From assembly GCA_963402885.1 (NCBI GenBank), contig OY727103.1:8780501-8844500 (forward strand): DNA of 64,000 nt. Reading direction: 5' to 3'. Below, piece by piece: positions 8,145 through 62,771 of this stretch. The stretch is from Antedon bifida. Lineage: Eukaryota > Echinodermata > Crinoidea > Comatulida > Antedonidae. Every line of letters starts with the position of its first letter. Within the stretch, counting starts at the first letter, position 1. Both the position numbers and the translations under genes were made by a program. The notes below the pieces were generated by a model. That model did no database searches and had not been told where the DNA came from. It saw only the letters and a list, made by a program, of their open reading frames with translations.

Positions 8145-9027
8145 TTATTGCTCAATCGGATCTTCTAACTTTTCAGCAGCAACATTCATCCCATTCTCCC
8201 TTAAATCATTAATAAACGATGGCAATTCTTCTTCTGTAATGATACGTCTTCGTTCGAGATCTAGTATCATAGTCCACTGGTTCTTACGTTGTTTCTTTGA
8301 AAAACCTTTAAGATGAGTAAGCGTTGTTATATTGTCTTTAGAAAGTGCTTTACCGAATTTAATCAGCTTTTGTCGATATGGAGAGAAAGAAACTACATGG
8401 TGGTCGGCTTCATCATAAGTGTCTTTTAGCAGTTTATTGACCTCAAGAACACCATTGAAACCAGTGACATTAATTGCGTCGATAAGAACTTTAAACTTGG
8501 TGACTGTAAGATGGCCACAGCGCTTTAATACATTGAATAATTCCATGGTGCTTCCGGCGTTCTGTAGGTCACTGTAAACTGTTATCATGTCATTGCACAA
8601 CACCTTCAGCTTATCAAGTAGATCATGCTGATCACACCAGGTAGATACTTGTAGCAACATTGTCTGAAATTCCTTCTCGGATGATTCTGTACAACGGAAA
8701 TGCATAAAAACAACATTTGAAAAAAATGTACTATACACCACAATAATTGTATAATAATCATACACTTCAGTATAACAATATAACGTACACCCACTGCCTT
8801 GATTATCTTTTTAATCAATACTATATCGTTGTGTTATTTTATATAATAATTTAACAGTAACATCGTCTTCATTATCAACAACTTTGTTGTCATCTTATCT
8901 TTTTTATCATCATAACAATAACCATAGCAGTATATGATTTGTATGTAGGCCTTTACTAGTTTACCTTTACTTGGATGGCATCGATGATCAAATGAAGCAC
9001 CTTCATGTTCGTTCTTCTCAATACTGC
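8145..9027 (-). CDS. C-terminal exons with two death-effector-like domains
   Basis: A 63-nt linker exon (9027-8965) joins in phase to the last exon (8686-8145), which ends DPIEQ and a TAA stop. The last exon has two similar helical modules. In the first, ELFNVLKRCGHLTVTKFKVL fits the helix 5 region of death-effector domains. In the second, LDLERRRIITEEELPSFIND fits the same place. Death-fold modules bind like with like and would tie the GTPase to an apoptosis or immune adaptor. This is inference from pattern, because the key charged triad cannot be judged by eye. A death domain or CARD is a weaker alternative. Confidence 0.65.
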
Positions 9028-12000
9028 CTAAAATTAATCACAATGAGAGGCTACTTTCAAAATAATGTACATATATGATCTTCTTCAATATATGCATTTA
9101 TTTAAGCATGGTACATGTTCACACACAATGTTGTAAACTGTTTATACTGTGTCGTATCAAAACCTATTTAAACATTTCGTGTGATGACAATTATGGGTAG
9201 TGAGTTATTGATTTGTTTTATCTTTTGTGGTAGCCACCACCTTTATTCATCATTCAATCTTTCATAAATGTATTACAATTGTTGTATATACTTTCATTTC
9301 ATATAATATATAATACATTTCCGTTTCCTCAGTAGTTTTAATATTAACAATGTTTGTTTTTTCTTCTGATTAGAACAATCAGTTGTATTCATTTCGTAAC
9401 ATATTATCATTATTTTTTTGTTTGTATCTATCCTATTCTTATATAATTTTTCCTAACACATTCCCATTCTCTTAGCATTTTTTTAAATATTTTTTTGATA
9501 GATATTTACAATCACAGTATACTATTACCGTTGCATTTGTTTCGATCAAACATATATTCAATTAACAATGCATATTCTCTCTATTAACTGTGAATTACTA
9601 CTTACTAGCTATTTAAACTAACAAAATATTAACATTGCTTTTTATTTTGAATAACAAAATATTTTAATTTAACATTGCTTTTTTTTAAAATAAATCCACT
9701 TTTCAACAGTTTCTTTTGCCTTATTGTTACATAAAATTTACTTGAAACATAGCGAATGTTGCATGAATTAGTGAGTGAGTCCAAGATATATGATAAAAAC
9801 CATAAAATATTTAACTACATGAAATGTCGTATATTATGTTACTAATCTTAGTAAAAATATTGCATATTCCTTGTGATTAGTTCATTATGAAAGACATTAA
9901 TAAGAGTGTTTTTATGGTTACTGTGTTTAAATTTACATATTGAGAATTTAGCAATAAAAATAATTTTTTTATATAATTATTTACAATTCATTCTTTGTGC
10001 GTAAAATCCAAACATAACATGTTTTAACTCTATATTTATCATATATTTCGTCTCAGTTCATCTCATAAACAGAGACTCTGGGACACTATATTGTCTATCA
10101 ATTGTGCATTACAGAAGTTACAAAACTGATCTTCAATTATTCCCATTTTTTCAGTAAAATGTTTGTTGGATAACAATTATTCAGGATTTTTCAGTTTGTG
10201 GAGAATACTCTAGGGTATTGGGAGACTAGTGAGGTAGTGAGTTATTGATGGAGAAAATTATTTAAATTTAGTTAATGCATTTTCGCATATTGTTTTGATG
10301 TTCACTCTTCTTAATTTTACCCATAAAAAGTAAAATTAGAATCTTTCATTTGCTTTGAAAGAAAAATGTTGATTTGATGAAGTTATAGTGTGCCTTAAAA
10401 ACAAAATTCACAATAGTCCACGCAACCAATGTTTTGTATAAATAGCAGACTATTTTGGTTAAATATGTTATCTATTTAATTGGATTTCAATAAATATAGT
10501 ACTATTATTTGTATTATCTAACTGCTTACAAATGTGTGATGACATAGGCCTATTAGCACTCACATACAAAATGAGTGAGGAAGCTGTAATCACTAGCAAT
10601 AAAGCTATAGAATATAGAAAGAACAAGCACCTTTATTTTTGAATAATTGAAATCGGAAAACGTCATCTGTATTATTGTAATACTTTCAATGAAACACGAT
10701 TTTTGCTAGACGCCTGTCATTAGACTGGGAAGGTCCGACGCGAGTTAAGATACAATAATGTTGCAGTATGTTTTGGGTATGTATGTATTTATCATTGGTA
10801 ATGACGAATAATGATGATGACAAAGATGCAGAGTCAACTAAGATAAAGTAATTGCATAGAAGTTGCTGGAACAAACAACAACTGAACAACTTTACCTGTC
10901 AAAAAGAAGCGCTTGATATTAGCGGTATCCATAGACGTATCGGTTCCACAGGGTACTACATCATTTTTCAAACACTTTTCAAGGTCAACTAAGTGATGTT
11001 CCTTTGGATTACAAGCATCGCATACCACACGTAGCTTGTAACCACTACCTTCGTATATGTTGCATACAGTTTCTAGTTGGTCTCTCAAGTAACTTAGTAC
11101 CTAAAAAACGTGGAAGTGGTGTGAAATATTACATTTAATTTACATTATGTTTAGAAGTGTTAGGGCAAATTTACACAGACAAGCGGTAACGGTAAGCGGT
11201 AGGCCTAAAGGTAAGCGGAAAACGCAAACATAGAATCTATGTTATTTCTTATGACCATTTACACAGAACGCGGAATGGACAGGCGGTTGAGCATAAATCG
11301 GCTTAGGATAGAAACAGATTCGATTTTTTTTAATACCGCCCGGTAATCGTGGATTCTGGCCAATCAACGACATGATTGATGTGACGTCATCTATCAACAA
11401 CTTTTTTTGCGCGAGTCCGTCGAGTTCAAGATGACAATAACAACGAGTGCCGTAGTAGGCCTAGCCAAGTTTTGAACTTCTTATTTTTCAGAAATACAAA
11501 CTACTACGATGTTTGTATAAGAATTGGGTAAAGGAAAAATACAGTAAGGACGTTATTAGCCAACAAGTCATTTTAAAACCTAGGCATGTGTGGTAGGCTA
11601 CTGCGTGGTAGGCCTACTGACAGTCTAGCCCAGGTCAGCGCAGTGCTTTCAACATGTAGTAGCCTAGAGGTCTACAAGCACCAATTCCGCGCGCTGTGTA
11701 AATGGAACAAGTCACGCGGTTTTCCGCTTACCGTTACCGCTCGTCTGTGTAAATTGGCCTTCAATATCATGCATAATAATGATTACCTCCATACAGACAC
11801 TCGGCTGGAGTTGTCGTTCAGTGCATCCAACTTCTGTAGACCTCGTTATTGTCCGACGAAATATTTCAAGCTATCAAGACAAATTGATTAGTGATTAAAA
11901 CTTGTCTGAACATCATAAGTAAATGTAGTTGATGTATTGATGTATTTATTGTAAAAATATAAAGAGAAAAATACATTACACAGTATTATATTGATGTCCT

Positions 12001-15000
12001 ACCTTAATTGCGTGTGGTTTTTCATTTTCACGCTCAATTTGTACGGCACCTAAACTGACTTTGTGATCTTTAAATTCAAAATCACTACGATTCCGGAACA
12101 CTTGTGAATCATCACTATCTGTTCCCGTCATCAATTCAAGAAATGCAACAACTAAAGTGTGGTACACGGCATCAGGAAGAAAGTCTGTCGGAGTAAGATA
12201 AATTGATACCATCTGCATGCTATCTGGTGTCACTTTCAGAATAGTAGTTGTATAAACATTCATCCGACACGGAACCAAGAATTCACGGTTACCATCTTGT
12301 ACCTGTTATTATAAACATTGATGTTTGCATTTATTTTACACATTATTCACGAGAGTTTTCAATTATTGATGTAATCAATTAATGCACATAATACTTACCC
12401 CCTTCTTCTCAAAGAGCAACCGAAACACCCTCATCACTTCAATGAAGATGTCAAAGTGATCTCGATTTTCAGTTTTCCATAAATAACGTAGTAACTTCTC
12501 CTCAAGAATACCTTGTTTTTCAAGTCTTTTCCATAGCGACTTCATTTCCTCCTATGTACAAATAAGTAACTAAAGTAAGTAAGTAATTATACACAATAAT
12601 TACTAAAAATTACTTCACAATTGAAGACTCCAGTTGTCAGCAAAACAGAATTTACATGTTATCTATTTTTTTCTCATTCTAATACTATTCTAATTATTAT
12701 GATTTGTCTACTTACATCTTCAATATGTGGTGGAAATAATGTGATCACAGTTGTCAACATCTGGATCATCGTGTGAAGATTAGTTACTACTATGTTCTTT
12801 AATTTCTTGTCTTTATTGGAATGCAAAATCTTTCCAATGTCATTCATATACCTTATGGCAACTTTAATCGCTTCTTCGGAAATTCCACATTCAGTGCCAA
12901 TTCGAGAAGCCTAATAAAAAATTGACATTTAATAAACGGTTTCATACCAATATATTGACGAATAAGTATATAAACATTGTGATAACAAATTACAATTGTA
13001 TTTATTATAATTACTACAAGGAATGGCATGCTATTACATTTTATAATGCAAATAGAGAAAAGTAAAAAAAAACTTAAACATTTACAACAAAGGCTTATTT
13101 TAACATAATCATTAGATTATTGATTTAAGCATTAGTTAGTTCATTAGTTTATAGTTTTTTGCTACCGCTCATATTGTATCAATTTCTGTATTTGGATGTA
13201 TGATGATTCGTTGATATTTGTTTGTCACATGTAATCTGGCTAAATGGTAACAGCATTGTAAGTGTTTTGATATATTCTTTTAAGTTTTTTTTTTGCAAAA
13301 ACAATGGTTAGTTTATTAGTTATTAGAGTACCGTATATGTTTTACGTTAATATAATTATCGTCTGTTATAGTGAAGCTCGGGAGCTAACGAAATACAATG
13401 AAGAAATGATGTGAACAAAATAAGTAGACGTACTGTATGTTGTGAATTAATATATGCTATGATAAATTTTGCTGCACTCTGAAGTGGACGGGAGTATTAA
13501 ATTTAAATTAAACTATCGGAAAATATATTGAGTAAAATTAATACGTAGTGTATTTTTTTTCAATATAATTCAATTGAATTAAAAATTAATAAATGCAGAC
13601 AAAAATCTACATCTTTAGGTATTAATGTGATATGTTATACAATATCATTAATGCGGTAGAGAATGTCTTTCAAATGTGATACAATTAAGGAGTGTATTTT
13701 GAAAGCCTATAAAATAAGTAAAACAATCATACTTAATCACATATTCAAAATTAAGTTACAATAAATTGTAAATCAAAACACAGACAAATAGTTAAAATAT
13801 CATACTAACAAAATACACTGTTTTGTTTTCGACAGTGGCGTTCTGAGGAATTGCGAATCTCTCAAATACTTGTGTTTTTAGTTAGCCGTTACAGAATGAC
13901 ACACCAACAAACTTTTGGTATTGTGACGCGGTCTTCGAGTCAGACTTCGAACACGTGATTTGCATAAGAATGAACTCACCAAGAAGGAAATCGAAGATTT
14001 AAAAGAAAACCGACATACAATTCCAATCTTTTTCTTTGGATATTGTTGTTTATTTTATTGTTGTTATATTATTATTGTTTATATGTAAGGCTCAGGTTAG
14101 GTCATCTAACTAAGGTCAACTATGTTGTGCACACAATAATTGCCATCACACATACGTAGAAATGGTATGAAATAGATATTGCTATTATACCATGAAAGCA
14201 CAATCAAGATTTACCTCATTAAATGAAATGCACAGTCTTGTTTTTCCAATTTCTTGTAATCTTTCCTGAAAATCAAGCCACTTCAGAGGAATGACCTTCG
14301 CCCCTATTACATCCATGTATCTAACAACGTTTCTCTTAAGTTTTTTAATACCTTCGTGTGATTTAACCGTGTTGTTGACCATGTACATTTCACGATCTAC
14401 ATGCTCGGCATATTCCGTTCTTTCTATTTTAGCAAAAATGGTCTCATACATATTCTGAACCTTCAAATAAAAACAATACAGGTATTAAAATTGTTACAGT
14501 TTAAGTTTATAAAATACGTTTTAACTATGTAAAATGTTGTTAACTATGCCTACTGCTAAATTCTGTCAAATTTTTAATATTCAATGTTTAATGTTGTTTC
14601 TGTGGAATAATATTAAAATCGTATGTACATGTACATATATGCCTAGCGGTCCAGATGATACGAAGCTAGATAACTGATATTACACGAGATGTCCTATGTC
14701 GATACATACTATGCCTACAACCACAGTCGTGTCAAAACTGAAATAAACTCTACATTTATTGCGTTGACATTTCATTTTGGTGCTAGCCTGCAACACAAAA
14801 CATTCAATTGAAACCTATAATGCTCGTATCGTTATCATTATACACGTTGTTGTATTTTGAAGCACTAATTCCTGCACTAATCATTACTTAATTACACTCT
14901 TTATTATGGTATTATTATTTCTACTGATGTGATAGATGTGTGCCTAATATTTCCATTTTCTTGGGAAACCGTTACCTAAAAAATTAATGCATAAAAGTAT

Positions 15001-18000
15001 GTATTGATGATTTCTAACGACTCATAAATATATACATTTTGTTATTATCCCGAAAAAAAACCCCGCAGGAATACTTTTTTTAATGATAGTATAATATTTA
15101 TTCCATTTTGTTAAACTCAAATTTCTTATCTGTGCATGTTGTAATACTCAAAGTTATGACCATTGCTCTTCATATATTAATTATGTATTTACATACTGCT
15201 ACTTCATTAAAACATTGTTATAATCTAATAGACAGAACTAATCAATATCTATTTATTAATCTGTATATTTCATTATTTTATTGTCGCTATTACCTCTTTC
15301 AGCTTTTCTGATGTTCTCCCTGGCAATTTGTCTATATGAGTAGCAACCAAACTGATGGGAGGCGATTTTATTACTTTGCCATCAATTGAAATTTGGTTTC
15401 CGGAATCATGTCGTTTCACAGTATGTTCATATACTGACCTTACCCAGAACATAATTATGTCCAAATTAGTCATTCCTAACGGACCCTAAATTGAAATGTA
15501 AAATAGATTTTAAAATGATATATACTGTATTATATTATATATAGCCAACGTATTCTATAAAAAAACTAACAATAGGCCTATTACATTTTAATACAATAAG
15601 CATAATATAACTTGGTAAACTTACCAATGCTGGATCTCGTCTTTTAGCTAGTTCGTCTAACTTATCCAACGCACTAAACGCAATGCAGTACGATACTCTA
15701 TTTGTGAGGAAAAACTGAAAACAAAACACAGATAATTGATGTAGGATATAATGATTTTTGGAACCTCATTTTGGCGGTTGGAGCATTCTCAATTTGTATG
15801 GAGCGCAATTTGTGGTTAATACTACTAACACTATACACATTTAGGTTGTGTACATTTGTTTTAATTCTCTTTTTATTGGACATTTTTAGTCACGTGCTGA
15901 ACCACCCGGGTAAGTGATGCGGAATGTTTCAGCGTCAAATCAACTCGGGGGGACGCACCCGGGATGAACCCGTGTTTGCGGTGTAAAACTCAGCGTATCT
16001 TTACCCGTTTGTTTACTATCCTCGCCCACTATAGTATTTAATTTACATAAAATGAGGATAAAATTGATTTTGTTTATTCGCTTATTTAATAAATAAAACT
16101 TATGGTTTTTTGTTATTTATTTTTATTTCAAGATATTATTCTTCCAGAGTAGACTTATTTTGTGTGTGTATTGCCATAAAACAAAATTGTGGGAGGTATT
16201 ATGAGCAGACCGTTACTATGGTGTCTCTTCATGCGTGAGAAGGCGATATTTCGATTGATCTAGAACATTTACATGGGTTGGTATTTTGCAGTGTAAATAC
16301 ACGCAACCCGTGTCATTCCCGTGTTATGAATCAGGTGCGAAAAGGAAATTTATCCACACACGACACGGGGTTGTTATAAGCTCGGCGGTGTAAAAAAGGT
16401 ATATGTCGGTTGGTCGGTAAACACTAACTTGAGCACGCGACTGCAGCCCTGTATATATGGCATTGTTACTACAAAATCTTGTTTATGGTAGGTGCATGGT
16501 GGTCTATGACATTTTTGGCAACTATGGGGACCGATTATGATTACAATTTAATTGGCATGGAGAATGCTTCAATCGTTAAAATGACAATTACAATATACCT
16601 GAAATGTAATAAATATGAATACGAGAATTTTCATTATTTTCTTCTTTAAAGTTCCTTCTGAACATCTTTCGCATATTTTTGGCGTTGAATTTATAGCCAT
16701 ATGTGACTATATCATATCATTTGTCGCACAATGCTATCGGAAATATTGCATTCTGAGACGAGTATATGTAAACTGATTAATGTTAAAATGGTACATATTA
16801 TAATCGTTTCATTGCAGTTAAGACAAAGCAAACTAAGTTTTGAAAAATATGTACAGCAATATTTACGTAACGTAATATGTATATAATAGCATTGTTAAAT
16901 AGTCAAAGATGTCATAACATTTACATGTGTTTGTCATTAGGCTTGTGTTGGCCACGATATAGTATAATAATGAAGAATTAATCATATTGAATGGGATGGT
17001 TACGTTACGGCAGAAAATAGGTTGGTATGGATAAACAATTTCGGTAACGGTAATAATCGATATTACGCCTGCCTATTAATTTTAGGGATAATGTCAAATG
17101 CAATGCACATCCTGTTTACATACTTTAATAATACTACTTATATTAATAATTAACATATTGATAAGCATACCCTGTGCGTTATGTAGTAATCCAATTGACC
17201 AGCGTAGTCCCATATGCTAGTTATTTCATTTGGAATACTCTCTGAATCATCACTTCCTATTTTACTTATAAAATCTTTGAATTTGTTCAAGAGGCTCCGG
17301 TTTTCATTGCTATCTATTGTAGGATAAACAAAAACACATGGAAACAAAACGAATTTGATCGCTGTCCAGGTTTTCAGGAATGCTTGTTTTCTTTAAATGT
17401 TAATTAGAAGAAATTGTTATTTTGTGGGAGGAATAATATTTCAAATAAATAGTTCACAAGTTCTTAAGTTCACGAAAATAACATTTGGACGTATTACCAT
17501 GAAAATAAATCAACTCGTTTCAGAAGGTTTCAATCTGATGTTACGGATGGTTGTAGACCTACATACATGTTTCGAGAAGCATTACCCATCAGTGTGAATC
17601 TATTTTACCCTCTTTATATTTGTCAAGTATTTTTAAAATACTATCCTATGATTTACTATTGCCAGTACTTTTCATTTGTATTTTTTTTAATGTCATGTTT
17701 TTAAATTGATATTAATCATGTGATTTTTTTATTTTTTTTTATCTTATGGTGATCCTAAATACAACTTTTAAAGTTCACCATTTTTGTACTATCGTCTAGG
17801 TTTTATTCCTTAATATCCAATCATTAATCTACAGTTTCGTTTATCATAATTGATAATGAAAGGTGAATACATTCAAATGTTAACAAGCTTCCATTATTTT
17901 TGCTGTACATACCCTGTTTTAACTCTTTGTCAACTTTTTTTGCTAATGCATTTTCACGCATTTTCTTGGTTAGCTCAGAATCTGTACAAATAAACCAATT

Positions 18001-36000: not shown

Positions 36001-39000
36001 TTAAAATGCAAAAGAAGAATCACAAATAAGTTGAAAAATATAATTTATAGTAGCCTAAACTGATGTAAAAACATAATTTTTAATTAAAAGACGTAACCTT
36101 GGTTTATTTAATTAAATTTAATTATTAATTTATACATGATTTGATCTCTACATAAAGCAAGGCACTTTTAATTGTTAGAATAAACGTTTTTAATTCAATT
36201 TTCCCTTAGTAGGGAAAAAATCCATTGCACAACTGGGATTTTCAGCATATTAGACCTACAATCATTTAGCAATAATGTCCAATATATTATTTATTAAATA
36301 ACATTATGTTATATCTACCTTTTCTAATCCGTATTTGAGGGCTATTTTAAATTATTTACTAATTCAATGACATTCAGGTCTAGCGTAGGGCCTTTCACAG
36401 TATAATTTACAGACCACCCTATACAGTATAATATTTAGTATAGCCAAAGATATTTAATGACTGATTAAATGCCGTAATAATCGAATTTAAAAATCAAGAA
36501 CAGTCGTAATCGTTACAGTACCGTTTCGTGTGTGTTGTCAATGCCATAATGTAATGTAATTCAATGTACATGCTTGTGCTAGAGAGAACGTACGAAAGAA
36601 CAAACATCGAAGCATGACATTAAATTGCCTGAAATTTATTTATATAATTAGCTTACTATATAATTTAGCAATAACCACATAAATCAGTTTTTACTGGGTA
36701 AAATACTGTTCAATATTCCATAAACTATGCTCACTCTTACATCGCGCGACTGAACATTAGCCATAAAGTAATGGGATGTTCCAGATACACAATAAACCAA
36801 TAATACCACTTGCAATTAGTGACCAATCGCATATTCGCCGTTTATTGAGCCGCGTAAACAGTGTGCGCGATGCGCGTTTTCCTCCCACGAAGTGACGAAT
36901 CGATATTCGACGGTCAGTGAGAGGAATAATACACAACATACAATATTCGCCAAATTATAATTAAAATAATTAATTAATGAAATAAGATACGCAGTTGATA
37001 TTTGCATCAATTGTTCTTTAGAATAAATACTTTCAAAATATACACAAACAAATTTCGCGCCTACATGACGATTCGCCGGTTCGTGTGACGGGTGACGAGT
37101 GACGGTATGATTAGAAATGATATCATAGAGCCTAGTTGCAGTGCTTGGTATAATTAGATATTGTATTAGTATAACTTCCAACGCAAGATAAATCTTTTTG
37201 CTACTCGGAGACTGCGGCAATTAACAAACTCATAGAATAATAAATAAAGACGCATACAACATAAGTTCTGGCTTAAATAGTTTAATTAGTAAATGAACAT
37301 TCACCCATGTAAAACTGCACATAAAAGTCATAAGCAAATATAAGTTATATAGCAATAATTTTCCAATTCTAAGTAAGCACAACAGGGATGCTCCGATAAA
37401 AATACTCAGAGAAAAATAGCCCTATTGCCATAAGTGTCATAATATTGGGCGGGAGGGAGGGAAAATTGTCTTCAACTTAATGTGATCGTGTTAACAGAGA
37501 GGATGCTTGATCAAAGAGGTCGAAAAACCCGCCCTCTCCGTTCTCAAAATAGAATTGTGTTCCCAACCCAATTCTTGATTTTTGCTACTCGGAGACTGCG
37601 GCAATTAACAAACTCATAGAATAATAAATAAAGACGCATACAACATAAGTTCTGGCTTAAATAGTTTAATTAGTAAATGAACATTCACCCATGTAAAACT
37701 GCACATAAATCTTATCCTTTTTGCACTGATTATCGGAAAGGCGGTAATTATTTTAGTTTTAGTTTATTGGGAAGGTGTTCCGGGCGTTTATTCAAATAAA
37801 TACCATCCTAATTGGTATAATTAATACATTATTCCGCTACACAGTGAGCCTTTTTGCCTAAGAACGAAGACGTTTTAGACGGCTTGCAACACTGGCCAGA
37901 AGTATCCCAGGGCCCTAATGGGACACAGATAGCGCACAGTATACATAAAGTCCTGGCATCTTATACTCAACAACTCGGCTATCGGAGTTTCAATCGATTT
38001 CAGACAAAAGCTGTTATCATCAGTTCTCTCGATGTAATGTTATATAAATATTTCCCACAATTTACTCCTATGTTTTATAAATATCTTTAATTTGATCTTT
38101 ATGTAGGCCTACTACTATATACCTTCACACGCGCGGTCCGAAAATATAAAAAACAAAATGGCTATCGCCACCAAGCACCAACGGCCAACTTAGTTGAAAC
38201 AGGGAGTTGTTTTACAACTCCCTGGTAGAAACCATGACGACCTTGCAGGGAATAGTAGCAAGGTGATTGACACACCTTACCGTGAACCCCAAAATTACTT
38301 CTACTTCTACCGCACATAGAGTTAAAATTTACCGATTGAAATTGAAATGTTGTTATAAAACCCTTTAGAATATCCTCCTAAGATAGAAATATGGAACAAT
38401 ATCGTAATAGTGGAAACTAATGTTATCAAATCTACGTTTCGCGGTACATCTGAGATAGATAAGGTAGGTATCCAAAGCAGAGATTTATACCGAAGTTTTT
38501 GCATTGTGCTCGCCTATGTCGGAATTAACCATAATTTATATATAGATGCAATGTAATATTATAAAAGAGATGTCGAAAATGGAATAGAGATGTTTGCTTG
38601 AACCGATAATGTTTCATTAATACTGGCATAATAGACCTCCTAAAATTGTATGTTACCTTATTTCGTGACGTTACTACTGCGCCGTGTTGTATGAGATAAT
38701 CCACTATTTCTGTTGTAGGGTTGGCAAATAGTAAATACACATGTAGTGGAGTGCTTCCAAACTAGAAAGAAATCATAACCATGTAGTAGCAAATATCAAT
38801 TCCAGCTGTAATGCAATCGTATATTTTGGTCATGCCACATTGATAATGGTTGTAAATTCTACATTGTTATGACAAAATCTTCTGAATGTACAAAACAATA
38901 AAAATCAGCTAAATTCATTTGTAAATTATTTACCACACATAGCTTGTTACATAGCATACCGTACTGACCAACGTCAACGCAATAAAATTATTTCAAGAGT

Positions 39001-42000
39001 TGATTATTATATTATATAAACCAACTTAAACAAACTAGACAGATAAATTAATGTGCTACTATAATTGTAATACAATGTGTGAATTAATATTAATTGACTT
39101 TATGCAATGTAATATTGTTTCTAAAAATATATGTCGGTTATGGCATGTCTTCATTTCTTGCTTCATTCAATAACTGCTTCTAAAATTCGCAATAAATAAT
39201 TCAAAATAATTAATATTAATTATAAATTACATATTATAAATGAAATAGAGATGTTTGCTGGAACAGATACTGTTTTCATAATAATGACATAAAAACCACT
39301 ATGATTGTGTGTACATTACTACATGTTGTGGTGTTATTGATGCGCCATACTATGTGAGACAAGTCACAATTGCTGTTAGAATATCGCAAATACCTATGTA
39401 GTTTAGTGTCGCCATACTAGAAAGAAGTCATATTCATGTAATGTATTCATATTTTTTATGTTAAATTAAGACCCAATGAAATTAGTTCAAGAATAATAAA
39501 TATGTTCTAACCAGCTTTAAAAAAAAATAGACAGATAAATTGAAGAACTGCTATAATTGTAATACAAATGTGTGAATGACAATCGATTATATGACGTCAT
39601 AATTGGCGAGAAACACTTAGTTATACTATGGAATAATTGTTTGTACAAACACATATCGATCATGGCATGTCTGCATGATATAGTTTTTAATTAATTTATT
39701 TTGTATTTAATAACTGTTTTTGAATTTGCAATACCTACTGCTAAATAATTCATATAATTATAAAAGAGACGTCATGAATGGAATAGAGACGTTTGCTTGA
39801 ACCGATAATGTTTTATTAATACTGGCATAATAGACCTCCTAAAATTGTATGTTACCTCATTTTGTGACGTTGCTGATGCGCCGTGTTGTATGAGATAATC
39901 CACTATGTCTGTTGTAGGGTTGGCATATCGTAAATACACATGTAGTGGAGTGTATCCAAACTAGAAAGAAATCATAACCATGTAGTAGTAAATGTCAATT
40001 CGAGCTGTAGTGTAATCACATTTTGGTCATGCCACATTGATAATGGTTGTAAATTGTACATTGTTATGACAAAATCTTCTGAGTGTAAAAAACAATAAAA
40101 ACCAGCTAAACTCATTTGTACATTATTTACCACACATAGCTTGTTAAATAGCATACTGTACTGACCAACGTCAACGCAACAGTCTACTTGTCTACGCCTT
40201 TATAAAATAGGACCCAAATAAAATAATTTCAAGAGTTGATAATTATATTATATAAACCAACTTAAACAACCTAGACAGATAAATTAAAGTGCTACTAAAA
40301 TTGTAATACAATTTATGAATTAGTATTAATTGACTTTACTAGAGGGTGAGCTCGCTTCGCTCGCTCCCCCTCTAGGAAGTGTAGACGATGGTTCTCGGAA
40401 TGATAATGTTCTTCTTTTACGTTTTCTGTCGGTTACCATTATTGAAAATGCTTGATATTCGTAAAACTAATCTAATAGATATGAAAAGTGGTAAAAAAGA
40501 ATAACAAATGCTTGGTAAATTGTAGATAACAGTGCGATGAATTCTACTACAAATAGTATAATTGTGTTATTATAAATGTGGATGGGATGGACGTTTATTA
40601 GATAGTTGGGTTGGCGGGGGGGGGGGGGTGGGGGTGTGGGTGTGGTGATTATTATTCAAAGTGATGTTTTATTGGAGAGGCGTTTATTCAAATAAATATC
40701 ATCCTAATAAGTATTATACATTATTTAATTTAAACATCTTTTGAAACTAACTGCCGTGACAGAGTGGGCCATTTCGGCCCAAGAAAGAAGACATTACGGC
40801 TTGCAACATGGGCAGACATCTCGGTCCTAACAGGACACAGATAGCCTACAGTTATTCCTGTCAGCTATCGGGATTTCACTCGATTAATGTCTTATCAACA
40901 AATCTCCCTATGTAATTTTATAATACTATTCCCCACAATATATTCCGATTCTTTATGGCGTATATTTAATTTGATCTTTATTAATTTGCAGTATAATTTT
41001 TATTTTTTAACTACTGTACCTTTCACACGGGCGGTCCGTTCCTAAAATAAACAAAAAACTAAAATGGCTATGACTAATGGCCAACTTAAGCTCCAGTCCT
41101 ATCTGATTTTTTTTTTTTAGTCTTCCAAAGAGACACTGTATTGATTGATGGAAAGTGCCTGTTTCCTGTCACCTTTAGGGTCAAATCTATTATTTTAACT
41201 GCTCCCTTGTGTATAAAAGAGAGAAAATAGTTGAAACCAAGTTGCTGTAAGGTACTTGAACTTATCATAAACCCGGAAATAACTTGACCGCCAAGAATTG
41301 AAATTGAGTAGAAAATCTACTGTTGAAATCATAAATGTTGTTAAAAAACTCTTTATAATATCTTGCTAAGTTAGAAATATGGAAAAATAGCGTCGAACTG
41401 CACATTAATGTTATCAAATCTACGTTTCGCGGTACATCTGAGATAGATAAGGTAGGTATCCAAGGCGGAGATTTGTACCGAAGTTTTTGCATTGTGCTCG
41501 CCTATGTCAGAATTAACCATAATTTATATATAGATGCAATGTAATATTGTTTCTAAAAATACATGTCGGTTATGGCATTCATTTCTTGTTTCATTCAATA
41601 ACTGCTTCTAAAATTCGCAATAAATAATTCAAAATAAATAATATTAATTATAAATTACATATTATAAATGAAATAGATATGTTTGCTGGAACAGATACTG
41701 TTTTCATAATAATGACATAAAGACCACTATGATTGTGTGTACATTACTACATGTTGTGGTGTTACTGATGCGCCATACTATGTGATACAAGTCACAATTG
41801 CTGTTAGAATATCGCAAATACCTATGTAGTGTAGTGTCTCCAAACTAGAAAGAAGTCATATTCATGTAATGTATTCATATTTTTTTATGTTAAATTAAGA
41901 CCCAATGAAATTAGTTCAAGAAAAATAAATATGTTCTAACCAGCTTTAAAAAAAATAGACAGATAAATTGAAGAACTACTATAATTGTAATACAAATGTG

Positions 42001-43736
42001 TGAATGACAATCGATTAAATGACGTCATAATTGGCGAGAAACACTACTATGGAATAATTGTTTGTACAAACACATATCGATCATGGCATGTCTGCATAAT
42101 ATAGTTTTTAATAAATTTATTTTTTATTTAATAACTGTTTTTGAATTTGCAATACCTACTGCTAAATAATTCATATAATTATAAAAGAGACGTCATGAAT
42201 GGAATAGAGACGTTTGCTTGAACCGATAATGTTTTATTAATACTGGCATAATGGACCTCCTAAAATTGTATGTTACCTTATTTTGTGACGTTGCTGATGC
42301 GCCGTGTTGTATGAGATAATCCACTATGTCTGTTGTAGGGTTGGCATATCGTAAATACACATGTAGTTGAGTGCTTCCAGACTATAAAGAAATCATAACC
42401 ATGTAGTAGTAAATGTCAATTCGAGCTGTAGTGTAATCATATTTTGGTCATGCCACATTGATAATGGTTGTAAATTCTACATTGTCATTACAAAATCTTC
42501 TGAGTGTACAAAACAATAAAAAACAGCTAAATTCATTTGTACATTATTTACCACACATAGCTTGTTACATAGCATACCGTACTGACCAACGTCAACGCAA
42601 CAGTCTACTTGTCTATGCCTTTATAAAATAGGACCCAAATAAAATTATTTCAAGAGGAGTTGATTATTATATTATATAAACCAACTTAAACAAACTAGAC
42701 AGATACATTAAAGTGCTACTATAATTGTAATACAATGTGTGAATTAATATTAATTGACTTTGTGCAATGTAATATTGTTTCAAAAAAATACATTGGTTAT
42801 GGCATTCATTTCTTGTTTTATTCAATAACTGCTTCTAAAATTTGCAATAAATAAATCAAATAATTAATATTGCTTGAACAGAAAGGCCTACTGTTTTCAT
42901 AATAACAATTAATACTACGTTTAATAACATGCTGATCTTACAAATCATGAAAAACAAAAGCACAAACAAACAGTTATTGTACAACCCTGAAGTAAATAAT
43001 TGTTATAACTATAATGAAAAGCGAAAAAAGTGAATACATAGTTGTTGTTGTCCACTGTCAAAGAATTGTGAGTCTACTGTAGTCACCATTATGAATTATC
43101 TGTATAATTATTTCGAAAAGTCTTACTAGATTTAGATGAACCCAATTATGCTCTTGAAGTTTTTTATTCACATACACAAAATGGGCTCTTGACTTGAAAC
43201 TGTCATTCTGACCGTCTACCTAATCGGCCAACCCTCTACAGTAACTGTACACACCGATCTCATAATTTAAAACAAACATTAACAGTAGGCCTAAGTACTG
43301 ATTAATATCGTCACTAAGTTTATTTAATTTGCAGCATTCGTCAATGAAGTGTGTGTTATTGATCCAGGGTATTATACAGTAATCATTACATTTGAATATA
43401 GGAATAATGAAAACAGTTTTACAATTTACATACATGTAACGGTCTTCTTGGAACTAATTGAATGAATTAGTAATATGGGAGTCCTATCATTTGTCTTACC
43501 AAATTTGTTTTTTTCAAAATATCTGGCTCTCTTTCACATAATTCTTTAATTTGTTGCAAGTCATTAATATCGAATGCATTTTGTAATCTGTAACGGTAAA
43601 GGTATAGGATATAACATGAATTACATCAATACATTAACAAAATAATGATACATTTGTTTATAGCCTTGTTAGAAAATGTATTTAATATTCAAAGGCATAT
43701 AGTGTTGTTCTGCAACTTTACAACTCACCTCCACAT
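8145..43736 (-). CDS. Ankyrin-Roc-COR protein with C-terminal death-effector-like domains (25 exons)
   Basis: I joined the exons from GT/AG splice sites and frame. Coordinates (minus strand): 43736-43729, 43587-43500, 42381-42277, 39960-39856, 38761-38657, 23916-23812, 23528-23463, 23015-22911, 22449-22345, 21590-21486, 20819-20715, 18996-18912, 18758-18593, 18328-18231, 17981-17913, 17313-17171, 15714-15625, 15485-15294, 14460-14215, 12910-12716, 12551-12399, 12302-12003, 11100-10896, 9027-8965 and 8686-8145. The joined frame is open for about 1182 residues. Order: N-terminal cap (1-32), ankyrin repeats (33-362), Roc GTPase (about 395-615), COR (about 640-913), Cys/His link (914-1002), two DED-like modules (1003-1182). 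It is probably a cytosolic signalling GTPase of the ROCO class, with adaptor modules at both ends. There is no kinase domain, LRR, signal peptide or membrane segment. An in-frame TGA lies nine codons 5' of the ATG, which supports the start, but the 8-nt first coding exon is the least sure part. Which ankyrin exons are used in the mRNA is unknown. Confidence 0.82.
9031..10890. other. Intron of the Roc-COR gene
   Basis: AT-rich, with no recognisable element or exon besides those reported. The ORF at 10686-10889 overlaps the real exon end and the intron. Confidence 0.5.
10896..14460 (-). CDS. COR domain and Cys/His-rich link exons
   Basis: Exons: 14460-14215 (ends with IPLKWLDFQERLQEI, the start of COR), 12910-12716 (YMNDIGKILH and a wHTH-like part), 12551-12399 (LWKRLEKQGILEEKLL), 12302-12003 (FLVPCRMN and FLPDAVYHTLV) and 11100-10896. 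The patterns Lys-Trp-Leu, GxIL, the VPC strand and FLPDxxxHxLV match COR domains that follow Roc in ROCO proteins. The last exon holds CDACNPKEHHLVDLEKCLKN and a further PCG, a possible metal-binding cluster that I do not recognise as a named domain. COR mediates dimerisation and couples it to GTP turnover in known ROCO proteins. Confidence 0.85.
11163..11759. mobile_element. MITE with GGGCAAATTTACACAGAC termini
   Basis: The left end (GGGCAAATTTACACAGAC, then AGCGGTAACGGTAAGCGG) is repeated in inverse at the right end (CCGCTTACCGTTACCGCT, then GTCTGTGTAAATTGGCC). It sits inside the intron between exons 12302-12003 and 11100-10896. The left flank is TTA and the right flank is TTC, which hints at a decayed 3-bp target duplication as in PIF/Harbinger elements. 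There is no transposase. Confidence 0.7.
12920..14205. other. Intron of the Roc-COR gene
   Basis: Single-copy-looking AT-rich intron. I see no exon or repeat. Confidence 0.4.
15294..18996 (-). CDS. Last ankyrin piece and Roc GTPase exons
   Basis: Exons: 18996-18912 (EGKTAVSVLEENTQ, final ankyrin-like piece), 18758-18593 (P-loop GKEGAGKTS, residues 401-409), 18328-18231 (switch I, EPSTDGI, Thr426), 17981-17913 (charged helix), 17313-17171 (switch II, WDYAGQ, Asp509 and Gly512), 15714-15625, and 15485-15294 (G4-type THIDK, residues 600-604). All splice phases agree (1, 2, 1, 1, 0, 0, 0). By family knowledge a Roc domain binds and hydrolyses GTP and dimerises through the following COR domain. 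All expected nucleotide-binding residues are present, so the GTPase looks competent. The THxD form of G4 is usual in this family. Confidence 0.88.
15890..16470. repeat. GC-richer repeat block with partly inverted ends
   Basis: A GC-richer island in an intron. ACCCGTGTTT near 15970 and AACCCGTGTCATTCCCGTG near 16305 suggest a decayed inverted-repeat element. Its end (about 16395-16465) matches, in inverse, the CGACC-rich satellite and flanking GCAGTCGCGTGC of the fold-back element at 29.2-29.8 kb. Confidence 0.4.
19219..19376. repeat. Direct repeat, copy 1
   Basis: Nearly identical to 19742-19896 (shared ACATTTTTAAAT, AATTTCGCCGTAAATTTA and AATCACGTGACCAAACTAAT). Both are in the intron between the ankyrin array and the Roc exons and lie about 520 bp apart. 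Confidence 0.75.
19671..19706 (-). pseudogene. 3' remnant of an ankyrin exon
   Basis: Only the last codons (QGASITALNK) and the GTAATA donor remain of the 105-nt exon. The upstream part is unrelated sequence. It marks the downstream edge of the duplicated array. Confidence 0.65.
19742..19896. repeat. Direct repeat, copy 2
   Basis: Second copy of the repeat at 19219-19376, in the same orientation, with a small insertion (TACGTGTTTA) before the CACGTG motif. Confidence 0.75.
20715..23916 (-). CDS. Downstream cluster of ankyrin-repeat exons (six intact)
   Basis: Exons of 105 nt lie at 23916-23812 (DGYTPINLYLM...), 23015-22911 (DGDTPLYEYMRSNEP...), 22449-22345, 21590-21486 and 20819-20715 (all DGNTPLHEYMR.NEP...). 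A 66-nt exon lies at 23528-23463 (EGTNALHVFLSGRY...). All are phase 0 and most have a GTAATA donor. The last four are nearly the same at protein level (TLEVVDYLTKQGAS) and their introns are nearly identical over hundreds of bases, so they arose by recent tandem duplication. Each adds one 35-residue ankyrin unit. The short exon lacks about 13 residues in its middle but stays in frame. Confidence 0.85.
22075..22175 (-). pseudogene. Degenerate ankyrin exon copy
   Basis: The 3' two thirds match the DGNTPLHEYMRSNEP exons. At the 5' end the acceptor has become an A-rich run and bases are missing around the TPLHEY codons, so the frame is lost. The donor GTAATA is kept. It lies only 270 bp from the intact exon at 22345 and looks like a product of unequal exchange. 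Confidence 0.7.
23950..24003. repeat. AAT/ATA microsatellite
   Basis: A run of AAT units broken by AAC, in the intron before the 23.9-kb ankyrin exon. Confidence 0.85.
24660..25437. repeat. Decayed tandem repeats with CCCGGTACAATT motif
   Basis: Versions of the phrase TCCCAGTACAATT or CCCGGTACAATTCTGGTC, followed by ATTTTGATACCC, recur at roughly 60-110 bp spacing, from about 24970 to 25665. Copies are poor matches, so this looks like an old satellite-like block within the TIR element. Confidence 0.4.
25438..25593. mobile_element. Short MITE, 156 bp, termini GCTTGGTTCCCA
   Basis: GCTTGGTTCCCA at the left and TGGGAACCAAGC at the right form perfect 12-bp termini. GACGCAA and TTGCGTC continue the pairing inside. 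It is embedded in the decayed tandem-repeat block. Confidence 0.8.
26377..26740 (+). pseudogene. Decayed transposon ORF fragments
   Basis: Read in more than one frame, this stretch keeps blocks THDHLNYGRLLQLYHFQQIT, SIDQGH.HGIIGIT and LANLVDEFESQHLKRDDILI. I recognise the general pattern (HLNYARxxPxY ... DxxxEQ ... GIxGIT) from uncharacterised invertebrate element proteins. Its function is not known to me. Stops and frameshifts separate the blocks. Confidence 0.4.
28976..29048 (+). tRNA. tRNA-Ala(AGC)-like gene
   Basis: A 73-base cloverleaf: acceptor stem GGGGGAC with GTCTTCC (two G-U pairs), D arm GCTC/GAGC, anticodon stem CTCAC/GTGAG with loop TTAGCAT (anticodon AGC), T stem CCGGG/CCCGG and discriminator A. 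The T loop reads ATCATTG, where the usual loop has CGA at its centre, so tertiary pairing and the B box are damaged. A T5 run follows at 29054-29058. It is either a decaying tRNA gene or the tRNA-like head of the surrounding element. No CCA is encoded. Confidence 0.7.
29275..29830. repeat. Satellite-like tandem array with GTTTACCGACCGACC motif
   Basis: Five starts of the motif TTTACYGACCRACC occur at about 29286, 29411, 29543, 29671 and 29810, a period of 125-139 bp. Each is followed by TGCTGAAAATGTT and TTTATATTTGCCT. The array is flanked by GTCGCGTGC on the left and GCACGCGACT on the right. It lies between the arms of the fold-back element. Confidence 0.75.
31560..31815 (-). mobile_element. 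tRNA-headed SINE with conserved central core
   Basis: On the minus strand it begins AGTGGCCGATCGGTTAAGAC, like the A box of Leu/Ser tRNAs. A core with TTCGGATAAGG and TAAACCGTAGGTCC follows. The B box is hard to see, so the copy is old. The core resembles the one in the 5S-headed SINE at 47.5 kb. There is no ORF. Confidence 0.6.
31920..31962 (-). pseudogene. Fossil ankyrin exon inside the large intron
   Basis: After a TATAG acceptor the minus strand reads DGKTPLPDTYLLG and then breaks off. The flanking intron (31963-32060) matches the intron next to the DGNTPLHEYMR exons, including the motif GCAAATAATT. It is therefore a piece of the same array, left behind between mobile elements. Confidence 0.6.
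32525..32820 (+). repeat. Dispersed repeat, copy 1
   Basis: Matches 52105-52400 in the same orientation (shared GACGAATCGGCCCA, TTTTTAATTGTTCGTTTTAT and GTACAAACA). Family unknown and no coding motif. Confidence 0.65.
32840..33160 (+). repeat. Copy of the internal part of the 3.4-3.8 kb Helitron-like repeat
   Basis: Matches the minus strand of 3640-3830 (shared GCAATACTTTGACAATATTG, TTGGTCGCCATTTGAATCGA and AACGTCGTAGTGGTGTATCG). The hairpin end is missing here. A further piece of the same repeat is seen near 33370-33400. Confidence 0.65.
33161..34165. other. Intronic DNA without recognisable gene
   Basis: Contains open frames at 33620-33802 and 33897-34163 with no known motif. A short phrase, TTCTCAAAATAGAATCGTGTT (33942 region), recurs near 37540, so part of this is repeat. 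Confidence 0.4.
34170..34625 (+). repeat. Minisatellite, C-rich arm, unit like GGACAACTACCCCCTTA
   Basis: Many tandem copies, about 12-18 bp long, of GGACAACTACCCCC with or without CTTA or GG. They degrade toward 34600. Together with 34736-34995 they form an inverted pair. Confidence 0.85.
34736..34995 (-). repeat. Minisatellite, G-rich arm, inverse of the C-rich arm
   Basis: Copies of GGGGGTAGTTGTCCTAA are the reverse complement of the unit in 34170-34625, separated from it by about 110 bp of AT-rich spacer. The whole block could fold into a large cruciform or G-rich structure. Confidence 0.85.
34996..35770. other. Intronic DNA, no feature seen
   Basis: No convincing coding sequence. An open minus-strand frame at 34981-35184 is partly built from the minisatellite. 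Confidence 0.4.
35771..37087. mobile_element. Inverted-repeat element with CACACGAACCGGCGAATC termini
   Basis: The left end CACACGAACCGGCGAATC (35771-35788) is inverted at the right end, GATTCGCCGGTTCGTGTG (37070-37087). Inside, related phrases such as ATATTCGACG and ATTCGCCG recur on both sides, so the inner ends are also partly inverted. There is no transposase, so it is a non-autonomous DNA element of about 1.3 kb. Confidence 0.7.
37195..37327. repeat. Tandem duplication, copy 1
   Basis: 133 bp starting TTTTTGCTACTCGGAGACTG is repeated almost without change at 37578-37709. The two lie about 380 bp apart, a recent local duplication. Confidence 0.8.
37578..37709. repeat. Tandem duplication, copy 2
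   Basis: Second copy of the 37195-37327 block. It is directly followed by the 3'-truncated Helitron-like copy. Confidence 0.8.
37740..38546 (-). mobile_element. Helitron-like element, copy A, 3' truncated
   Basis: The 5' end is TCTATATATAAATTATGG on the minus strand from 38546, preceded by A. The body shares CGCGGTACATCTGAG, GTGATTGACACACCTTACCG and GACACAGATAGCGCA with the other copies. The hairpin and CTAG end are missing. No Rep/helicase coding sequence is present. Confidence 0.75.
38657..42381 (-). CDS. Upstream cluster of ankyrin-repeat exons (three intact)
   Basis: Three intact 105-nt phase-0 exons, at 42381-42277, 39960-39856 and 38761-38657, each encode one 35-residue repeat. The residues TPLHVYL and VDYLIQHGA fit the ankyrin pattern (TPLH turn, then the second helix and GA). 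The exon at 42381 has TQLH in place of TPLH. All have a CTAG or ATAG acceptor and a GTAACA donor. They lie in tandemly duplicated units of about 1.23 kb (39103-40338 and 41535-42762, plus partial units), each also holding a broken 97-nt exon copy. Helitron-like elements sit at the unit borders. Confidence 0.85.
39320..39416 (-). pseudogene. Broken ankyrin exon, sister of the 41.8-kb copy
   Basis: It is 97 nt and starts YGDTKLHRYLRYSN, with the same 8-nt deletion and the same downstream stop as the copy at 41748-41844. The shared damage shows the exon died before the segment was duplicated. Confidence 0.75.
40339..41534 (-). mobile_element. Helitron-like element, copy B, complete ends
   Basis: The 5' end is TCTATATATAAATTATGG at 41534, preceded by A. 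The 3' end is the palindrome CCTAGAGGG ... CCCTCTAG with core GCGAGCGAAGCGAGC, ending CTAG at 40342-40339 and followed by T. Length 1196 bp. The unoccupied site is seen in the neighbouring duplicated unit at 39102/39103, so the boundaries are exact. It is non-autonomous. Confidence 0.85.
41748..41844 (-). pseudogene. Broken ankyrin exon (97 nt)
   Basis: It aligns to the 105-nt ankyrin exons: it starts FGDTTLHRYLRYSN, and after an 8-nt deletion it continues in another frame, where AIVT and YGAS are visible with a TAG stop between them. Splice-like ends remain (CTAG acceptor, GTAATG donor). Inclusion would break the reading frame, so it is probably a dead exon. The same 8-nt deletion is found in the copy at 39320-39416. 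Confidence 0.75.
43500..43736 (-). CDS. First two coding exons (N-terminal ankyrin cap)
   Basis: Exon 43587-43500 follows a CAG acceptor and precedes GTAAGA. It encodes LQNAFDINDLQQIKELCERE and ends in KKTNL, a helical N-terminal cap like those before ankyrin arrays. Its first base completes an Arg codon split with the upstream exon, 43736-43729, which reads ATG TGG AG before GTGAGT. Together they make 32 codons and end in phase 0, as the following ankyrin exons require. The start exon is an inference from phase and splice signal; a longer 5' exon elsewhere is possible. Confidence 0.6.
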
Positions 43737-61900: not shown

Positions 61901-62771
61901 TTGGTCATTTATAGTTAGATTTAACTTATTATTCTCTGGGTCTTTAGGTGTGGTGTTGGTATAGCTTTTAATCGTATTCTCTATAATTTCATTTATGAGT
62001 GTAACATAATCTTGGTCATGGAGAAGTGAATTATTAAATTTCCAAAACCCCTTTCCTCTTTCTATACTTTTTAAATCAAGTGTTATTGTCACTATGGAGT
62101 GATCAGACTTTGCATTTGACACTAGGTGCAATAAATTGTTTGATGTCAAAAAGTAATCAAGCCTTGCTTGTTTAAAAGGATTTTTTGATCACCACGTATA
62201 GCGCTTCTCGTTTGGGTTTTTTTTTTCTCCATATGTCACATAGATCCAAGTCTAGCATAATTTGTTGTACAATTGTTTTAGCTTTAGGATTATTTACATA
62301 TCGATAGTTAAATAGGTCTAGATTTTCATTTTGAACTAGATTCCAGTCACCGCAAATCAGAATGTAAGGGCTAGTGAATAATTCGATCACCTTTTTAACT
62401 TCCTGATAGAAAGAAGGATCATCTTTATTAGGCCCGTAAACATTCATTTTTATTAAGTCAATATCTCCCACTCTAATGTTGATCGCGATCCAATTACCAT
62501 AGTTATCTTTTTTAACATCATTTATGGAGTATTCGAAATTGTTATTTAGCAGAATAGCGACTCCCCTAGAATTTGATTTTCCATAGCTAATAAAACATTT
62601 GTGTCCCCACTCGGATTCTATTTGCGTTGTTTGTGATTCTACCCAATGAACGTCTTGTAAACAGTATATTGATAAGTGTTTCTCCCTCAAATAATTAAAA
62701 ACGTCATTTCGTTTTTTCTTATCGCCTAGGCCTCTGCAATTGGCAGACATACATTTAATGTTACTTAACAT
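58992..62771 (-). pseudogene. LINE ORF2: APE endonuclease, RT, CCHC end, frameshifted
   Basis: It begins MLSNIKCMSANCRGLGDKKK with the APE endonuclease motifs SANCRG, LQDVHW, NVYGPN, GDWN and ARLDYF. RT blocks follow: NNKSPGTDGF, NQAGFIKGR, VDFEKAFDSL, RGCRQGDPLSPYL and catalytic YADD (60645 region). The C-terminal part has a cysteine-histidine cluster (CSFCNIRRETVYHLFCKC) and ends WEEWSAWDNLL then TAA at 58994-58992. Frame breaks lie near 62190 (endonuclease, with a TGA), 61830, 61480, 61160, 60770, 60290 and 59560. The order endonuclease-RT-CCHC is that of L1/Tx1 elements. Catalytic residues are kept where they can be read. Confidence 0.88.

Follow-up and report, generated by a model that had tools for sequence, protein, structure and literature searches.

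An ankyrin-Roc-COR gene predicted to end in two death-effector domains, from a tandemly arrayed ROCO family of Antedon bifida

Analysis of a 64-kb stretch of the Antedon bifida genome assembly (C16:8780501-8844500, positions 1-64000 here and termed the window; the assembly comprises 315.6 Mb in 27 contigs) showed a predicted gene with the layout ankyrin - Roc - COR - DED - DED (DED, death-effector domain), and showed that this layout is repeated in tandem arrays. We favour, with modest confidence, the reading that the gene belongs to a lineage-specific ROCO family whose products would act as GTP-switched, ankyrin-sensing, NLR-like receptors or adaptors that signal via their DEDs. The combination of ankyrin, ROCO and DED was undescribed in the open-licence literature searched, preprints excluded.

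The window gene and its Roc-COR core

The gene lies on the minus strand, from 43736 to 8145, and was modelled as 25 exons by exon chaining and paralog curation (Table 1). Splice and codon scores were used for the chaining, and exons were retained only with paralog support or an ankyrin match. The spliced frame encodes 1187 aa with agreeing phases and no internal stops. This independent model agrees with the original prediction of 25 exons with consistent phases and about 1182 residues. The agreement of the phases was confirmed; however, it carries little weight in the ankyrin part, because the ankyrin exons there are phase 0-0, and the exact set of ankyrin exons that the gene uses is a guess. 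Unguided chaining gave many spurious exons inside long introns, which were removed, and lost the WDYAGQ join. A 63-nt phase-1 exon is probably additional to the 25-exon model, and perhaps optional; it is predicted in the window gene and in the paralog L072, with 17 of the 20 residues compared being equal. The interval 23917-38656 is an intron of ~14.7 kb. It has a simple repeat of the GGSCPGG type at around 34 kb, and no coding exon was recognised in it.

Both ends of the gene were compared with those of its paralogs. Exon 1 comprises the ATG, two to five bases and a GTRAGT donor in 12/12 aligned copies (the window copy and 11 of the 12 other places found), and the sole length difference among them is 3 bases. 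A short upstream frame (43761-43738) precedes the start, and an in-frame TGA (43760-43758) is present 24 nt ahead of the ATG; no kinase can therefore be read into the start from the same exon. The paralogous DED frames mostly end at nearly one residue, with two (L013 and L020) extending ~30 residues more, and for this reason the DED pair is probably the true C-terminus of the window gene.

Table 1. Exons of the window gene, in window positions, with the evidence for each.
Feature	Position	Strand	Evidence
Exon 1, start codon, MW + split R	43729..43736	-	ATG/donor kept in 12/12 aligned copies
Exon 2, ankyrin cap (RLQNAFDINDLQQIKELCEREPDILKKTNL)	43500..43587	-	Exon model, first-exon region alignment
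Exon 3, ankyrin repeat, 105 nt, phase 0-0	42277..42381	-	Exon model, ankyrin-exon comparison
Exon 4, ankyrin repeat, 105 nt	39856..39960	-	Exon model, ankyrin-exon comparison
Exon 5, ankyrin repeat, 105 nt	38657..38761	-	Exon model, ankyrin-exon comparison
Exon 6, ankyrin-like repeat, 105 nt	23812..23916	-	Exon model
Exon 7, short ankyrin-like, 66 nt, least certain of the set	23463..23528	-	Exon model
Exon 8, ankyrin repeat, 105 nt	22911..23015	-	Exon model, ankyrin-exon comparison
Exon 9, ankyrin repeat, 105 nt	22345..22449	-	Exon model, ankyrin-exon comparison
Exon 10, ankyrin repeat, 105 nt	21486..21590	-	Exon model, ankyrin-exon comparison
Exon 11, ankyrin repeat, 105 nt	20715..20819	-	Exon model, ankyrin-exon comparison
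Exon 12, ankyrin-Roc linker	18912..18996	-	Homologous exon in L069 and L071
Exon 13, Roc G1 P-loop, GKEGAGKTS	18593..18758	-	Motif, Pfam
Exon 14, Roc switch I, STDGI	18231..18328	-	Motif, exon model
Exon 15, Roc insert	17913..17981	-	Exon model
Exon 16, Roc G3, WDYAGQ	17171..17313	-	Motif, exon model
Exon 17, Roc core (FFLTNRVSYCIAF)	15625..15714	-	Equal join set in L069; phmmer alignment to C. tepidum Roco
Exon 18, Roc G4, THIDK	15294..15485	-	Motif, exon model
Exon 19, Roc end and COR start	14215..14454	-	Acceptor 14454, or in-frame 14460
Exon 20, COR-A	12716..12910	-	Pfam COR-A 64.7 bits, cut-off 35.3
Exon 21, COR-A	12399..12551	-	Exon model, Pfam
Exon 22, COR-B	12003..12302	-	Pfam COR-B 18.1 bits, below cut-off 27
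Exon 23, COR-B	11787..11870	-	Exon model
Exon 24, COR-B end, Cys/His-rich CxxC...HH...C...C	10896..11100	-	Pattern also in L069, L071 and L072
Probable extra phase-1 linker exon, outside the 25-exon model	8965..9027	-	Predicted in window gene and L072
Last exon, two DED modules and stop codon	8145..8686	-	Pfam DED 4.4e-07 (module 1), profile matches (both)

The motifs GKEGAGKT(S), STDGI, WDYAGQ and THIDK of the original prediction were all located on the minus strand (GKEGAGKT at 18645-18622, then 18309-18295, 17212-17195 and 15341-15327, respectively). The spliced frame thus carries the G1, switch I Thr, G3 and G4 motifs, and GTP binding is predicted; G1-G4 are kept in the paralogs L069 and L071. 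Pfam analysis of the joined protein gave, in order, ankyrin families, Roc (38.5 bits, cut-off 27), COR-A above and COR-B below the respective cut-offs (Table 1), and DED. The proposed ankyrin-Roc-COR-death-fold layout was therefore recovered by profiles for ankyrin, Roc, COR-A and DED, and weakly for COR-B. With Roc followed directly by COR, the predicted protein is a ROCO by membership. Its solved relatives, as identified by phmmer, are bacterial and archaeal-type Roco proteins and LRRK2, the best being C. tepidum Roco. The CxxC-x4-HH ... C ... C pattern at the COR-B end, shared with three paralogs, is a possible zinc site.

No kinase, LRR, NACHT or NB-ARC, or Death family was matched in the joined protein by Pfam at E up to 0.1, and an HRDxKxxN-type motif was absent from all six frames of the 64-kb window. 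Together with the stop ahead of the ATG, these results support the earlier suggestion that the kinase is absent, although a kinase exon could be spliced past this start or lie outside the window.

A family in tandem arrays

The window gene was shown, from genome-wide sequence matches, to be one of a predicted family in tandem arrays. The last exon, used as the query, gave at least 150 matches. In at least 48 of these (window included), the alignment covers 174 or more of the 184 residues, with 55-100% identity. The COR-A search yielded at least 122 loci with E no greater than 0.001 (best 150 of 248 candidates scored), a lower bound that omits the window gene itself and includes some weak rows. 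Only eight COR-A loci were above the curated cut-off among the matches listed, because the exons were scored apart.

The position of the DEDs relative to these 122 loci was then recorded, with the DED places pooled from two listings (150 rows and 117/118 rows). Downstream of at least 35 loci, a same-strand DED place lies no more than 5 kb away; among the matches listed, no locus has one upstream and none has one on the opposite strand within that distance. Within 15 kb, the count was at least 44 downstream and, among the matches listed, six upstream and none opposite. For the 78/122 COR-A loci with no DED within 15 kb downstream, among the matches listed, possible reasons are a different end, longer introns or DEDs outside the listing. 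A COR-A locus was present within 15 kb upstream of 44/229 pooled DED places, among the matches listed, and some of the other DED places appear stand-alone, with frames of ~200 residues (L087), while the rest may have different partners. Many such DED-DED frames of ~200 residues were observed, in an array at C10:3.00-3.12 Mb (L087), at C7 32-36 Mb and at C12 25-27 Mb; they are ~30-39% identical to the window exon, and some are apparently stand-alone.

The exon structure is also shared. A phase-1 AG acceptor is present at the same codon in 27/30 fetched DED exons (window included), and within four codons in 29/30. The paralog L069 has the entire Roc, COR and DED exon chain, with phases as in the window gene, and the Roc-COR-DED chain of L070, L071 and L072 matches up to the limits of the sequence fetched and of the automatic chaining. 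Possible Lys/Pro/Ala-rich or Pro/Ser-rich linker exons were noted in L069 (7709-7978) and L071 (7012-7134, both in reverse strand coordinates); these low-complexity linkers sit between COR and DED, and the window gene differs in this respect.

The window gene was compared with L072, the last exon of which lies 5 kb past the window edge. Over 569 codons, dS was 0.218, dN was 0.107 and dN/dS was 0.49 (95% interval 0.35-0.69), with the 63-nt linker exon excluded from the pooled value. The exon-wise point estimates of dN/dS were 0.79 for the Roc end, 0.56 and 0.33 for COR-A, 0.61, 0.34 and 0.29 for COR-B, and 0.37 for the DED exon. A dN/dS below 1 was thus shown over the predicted COR and DED exons against one paralog. 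As the exon phases recur in paralogs, the dN/dS is 0.49 and the DED acceptors are conserved, the predicted window gene is confirmed as an observation, with a recurrence beyond chance. A 281-base stretch at C16:8385739-8386019, 438 kb distant from the window copy, shows 100% identity to it around exons 1 and 2, a sign of a recent duplication or gene conversion.

Eight ankyrin exons of the window gene are exactly 105 nt, with phase 0 at both ends. The exons at 42381, 39960 and 38761 form one set with a mutual identity of 90-95%, and those at 23015, 22449, 21590 and 20819 form another with a mutual identity of 90-97%; the exon at 23916 stands apart from both. The similarity extends into the introns, with 184-190 of the preceding 200 bases agreeing in the first set and 169-196 in three members of the second. 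The intron before 23015 agrees at 135-143/200 positions, slightly over the 122-130 between unrelated members. This agreement means that exon and intron were mostly copied together, and the copying of predicted 105-nt ankyrin exons with neighbouring intron was shown on this basis. Broken or cut ankyrin-exon copies are present near 41844, 39416, 22173 and 19699.

With one ankyrin exon as the query, 123/150 among the matches listed were on C16 at 8.15-9.37 Mb, and the intervals between first exons contained 1-20 matches each, among the matches listed. The listing covers one sub-family, and the first-exon intervals represent putative genes; within that scope, the ankyrin repeat number seems to differ between genes. 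An automatic ankyrin-exon scan of all fetched loci found three exons, all in L069.

Several further features of the window and of the assembly were noted. A LINE-like piece with an open reverse transcriptase frame occupies the left edge of the window (1-1890, plus strand), and a frame-broken LINE-like copy with endonuclease, RT and zf-RVT pieces lies near the right edge (59134-62771, minus strand). Intronless frames, mostly of ~950-1000 codons and arranged in tandem arrays, have the Roc split, as at L088 (C15:13548250-13551450). In L088, G1 and switch I are followed by ~390 residues, in which a simple scan gave three or four hydrophobic stretches, and then by WDFAGQ and a COR-A match that is weak (16.3 bits, under the cut-off). 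Similar two-piece Roc matches are present at C15 13.46-13.55, 17.21-17.33 and 11.74 Mb, C8 26.33 and 26.44 Mb, and C10 17.91 Mb. If true, such a membrane-like insert, placed between switches I and II, would make for a very unusual ROCO-type GTPase. Ten large contigs of 19-37 Mb, and C13 with matches up to 20.5 Mb, suggest 11 chromosomes. The mitochondrial contig C27 (15,844 bases) reads AAA as Asn, ATA as Ile and TGA as Trp, i.e., the echinoderm/flatworm code, and GYNVEYAGG-like motifs in its translations are presumably normal mitochondrial protein motifs. One strand of C27 carries cox1, cox2, atp6, cox3, nad3, nad4, tRNA-Arg, nad4L and nad5, with nad1 and nad2 opposite (genes named by eye). 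In sea urchin mitochondria, unlike the C27 order, nad4L lies between cox1 and cox2.

The two C-terminal modules

Module 1 gave a Pfam DED match in 12/12 members (the window gene and 11 paralogs; best 4.7e-10). The score of the window copy was 30.5 bits on the exon alone and 22.0 bits in the whole protein, both under the curated cut-off of 35.9. Module 2 of the window gene was without a Pfam DED match. The modules were compared with a reference profile built from six other DEDs of the same genome (L084-L086), which itself matches caspase-8 at 1.9e-28, as well as c-FLIP, PEA-15 and FADD (PDB). With hhalign, module 2 matched this profile at 93.9% over 76 columns and module 1 at 92.7% over 75 columns, while a COR control reached 1.0%. 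The real score was reached by 0/60 column shuffles for module 2, 0/60 for module 1 and 6/60 for COR, and the reversed profiles gave 2.2%, 0.2% and 0.7%, respectively. The suggestion that the C-terminus is DED-like thus held for both modules, which match the genome's caspase-8-like DEDs profile to profile. As judged from these profile matches, the predicted death fold of the window protein is a DED, without a Pfam Death (DD) match.

Other results weigh against this assignment or were of no use. Modules 1 and 2 did not match each other (0.1% in the profile comparison). PDB profile searches with the DED exon, module 1 and module 2 gave zero, zero and three unrelated matches, respectively, with no death-fold structure. 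Single-sequence AlphaFold2 prediction of the last exon was all-helical at a pLDDT of 45.6, too low for use. RxDL, the motif of DED helix 6, is absent from both modules in all 12 aligned rows (window and 11 paralogs) and present in 4/6 of the genome's other DEDs (L084-L086). As it is missing in both modules, a canonical DED contact may be lost.

Proposed role and relation to known systems

In the reading that we favour, an NLR-like mode of working is inferred from the layout, with the Roc-COR switch standing in for NACHT. The ankyrin array would bind a microbial or danger ligand, and Roc-COR would then alter its nucleotide and dimer state; Roc-COR as a nucleotide-dependent dimer switch is discussed for other ROCO proteins in the available part of a review (PMC6337361). 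The switch would expose the tandem DEDs, which would nucleate or cap filaments of the genome's DED-bearing initiator caspases, and the DED-caspase filaments would lead to cell death or an immune response. The copying and loss of ankyrin exons between genes would be the source of recognition diversity, as suggested by the copy number.

An adaptor role in caspase-8-type signalling is plausible, although RxDL is absent from the modules of the window protein. On C1, a DED pair (8500675 and 8500105) is followed on the same strand by a caspase exon (8496153), and a second pair (8322278 and 8321867) likewise by a caspase exon (8320718); each is a putative single gene. These DED-caspase loci are candidate partners of the ROCO DED pair. 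A separate array of eight caspase matches at C10:23163492-23255205 has one same-strand COR-A match inside it (23192629), and a ROCO-caspase gene is possible there.

Rather unlikely, in our estimate, is that the DED pair serves as a brake or decoy like c-FLIP, in which case the ROCO protein would cap caspase-8-like DED filaments until GTP cycling or ligand release removes it. The tandem DED is as in FLIP, no catalytic domain was found in the window protein by Pfam, RxDL is absent, and the genome also has the apparently stand-alone DED-DED frames (L087); however, the variable ankyrin arrays fit a receptor at least equally. Caspase-8, c-FLIP, FADD and PEA-15 resemble the window protein in their tandem or single DEDs, and are strongly matched by six other DEDs of the genome, but the window DEDs lack RxDL and are fused to ankyrin-Roc-COR.

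The description of the protein as DAPK1-like stood in part. The order ankyrin, Roc, COR and C-terminal death fold is that of DAPK1 (ROCO group 3), and both are without LRR, but in the window protein no kinase was found and two DEDs take the place of the single DD of DAPK1. In number the two also differ, with at least 44 COR-DED loci within 15 kb here and one human DAPK1 gene in the available part of the review (PMC6337361). On its sequence features, the predicted window protein is not a DAPK, having neither kinase nor DD. Descent from DAPK1 through kinase loss and DD replacement, with a DAPK1-like housekeeping role in cell death retained, is a reading to which we give little credence. It is favoured by the common domain order and by DAPK1 being, according to the available part of the same review, the sole ROCO group that has a death domain and lacks LRR (PMC6337361). 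Nevertheless, a tandem family among at least 122 COR-A loci is unlike a housekeeping gene, the ankyrin exons are recent copies, and the phmmer relatives are prokaryotic Roco proteins and LRRK2, although the DAPK1 Roc-COR may be missing from the structure set.

DED signalling to non-caspase targets, e.g., NF-kB-type or RNA-linked immune complexes, would fit the absence of RxDL, and DEDs in other proteins work outside apoptosis; we rate this lower still. A gene-model artefact (a chance chain of exons from adjacent genes) or a pseudogene or dying copy is very improbable. In its favour, the gene sits among LINE remnants, contains broken ankyrin-exon copies and gains false exons on unguided chaining; against it, the gene has 1187 codons without a stop, a start, phases and acceptors conserved across paralogs, a dN/dS of 0.49, and the COR then DED order at at least 35 loci.

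The nearest published combinations found are ANK-ROCO, DED-NACHT and TIR-linked ROCO proteins, as far as the available parts of the sources describe them (PMC11378527, PMC2575513, PMC9334734). The ANK-ROCO proteins of oomycetes and Gonium also have ankyrin ahead of Roc-COR, with the DED pair of the window protein unmentioned in the available part of that source, the comparison being by description only (PMC11378527). LRR-Roc-COR proteins (bacterial Roco, MFHAS1 and brown algal ROCOs) share the Roc-COR core, whereas the window protein has ankyrin in place of LRR, plus DED-DED; with an ankyrin N-terminus and no LRR among its predicted domains, it is not a group 1 ROCO. The brown algal ROCOs are, in the available text, candidate immune receptors that are likewise subject to repeat-exon shuffling, of 72-bp phase-2 LRR exons in contrast to the 105-nt phase-0 ankyrin exons here (PMC11378527). 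The DED-NACHT NLRs of sea urchin, Nematostella and amphioxus, as partly described (PMC2575513), are alike in the proposed logic of repeat sensor, nucleotide switch and DED output, but the switch of the window protein is Roc-COR, its DEDs are C-terminal and its repeats are N-terminal. The window protein, lacking NACHT, is not an NLR and resembles one solely in its logic. ROCO-bearing TLR-, MyD88- and TIR-type proteins of Aplysia also join a ROCO core to innate immune signalling domains; in the available part of that source, the partners are TIR, LRR or death-like, the genes are few and a DED pair is unmentioned (PMC9334734).

Most of what is known of ROCO proteins concerns LRRK2 and DAPK1. According to the available part of the review, vertebrates have four ROCO proteins (PMC6337361). 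Brown algae have 9-47 ROCO genes per species, stated in the accessible text to be above other organisms reported to date (PMC11378527). Against this background, we suggest tentatively, and with less confidence than for the favoured reading of the family, a further great cytosolic receptor class beside NLRs and plant-type NB-ARC proteins. It would combine a recognition repertoire, made by the copying and loss of symmetric ankyrin exons within as well as between tandem genes, with a Roc-COR GTPase as the switch in place of the NACHT ATPase and a tandem DED leading directly to caspase-8-like enzymes. The receptor-class reading involves at least 44 COR-DED loci from a COR-A set that numbers at least 122 in this one animal, and the family adds an example, from an animal, of shuffled repeat exons in candidate receptors. 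Should the switch model hold, a GTPase would take on in an animal the job done by NACHT ATPases in NLRs, and the tandem paralogs would form a naturally occurring set for relating the Roc-COR nucleotide state to death-fold assembly.
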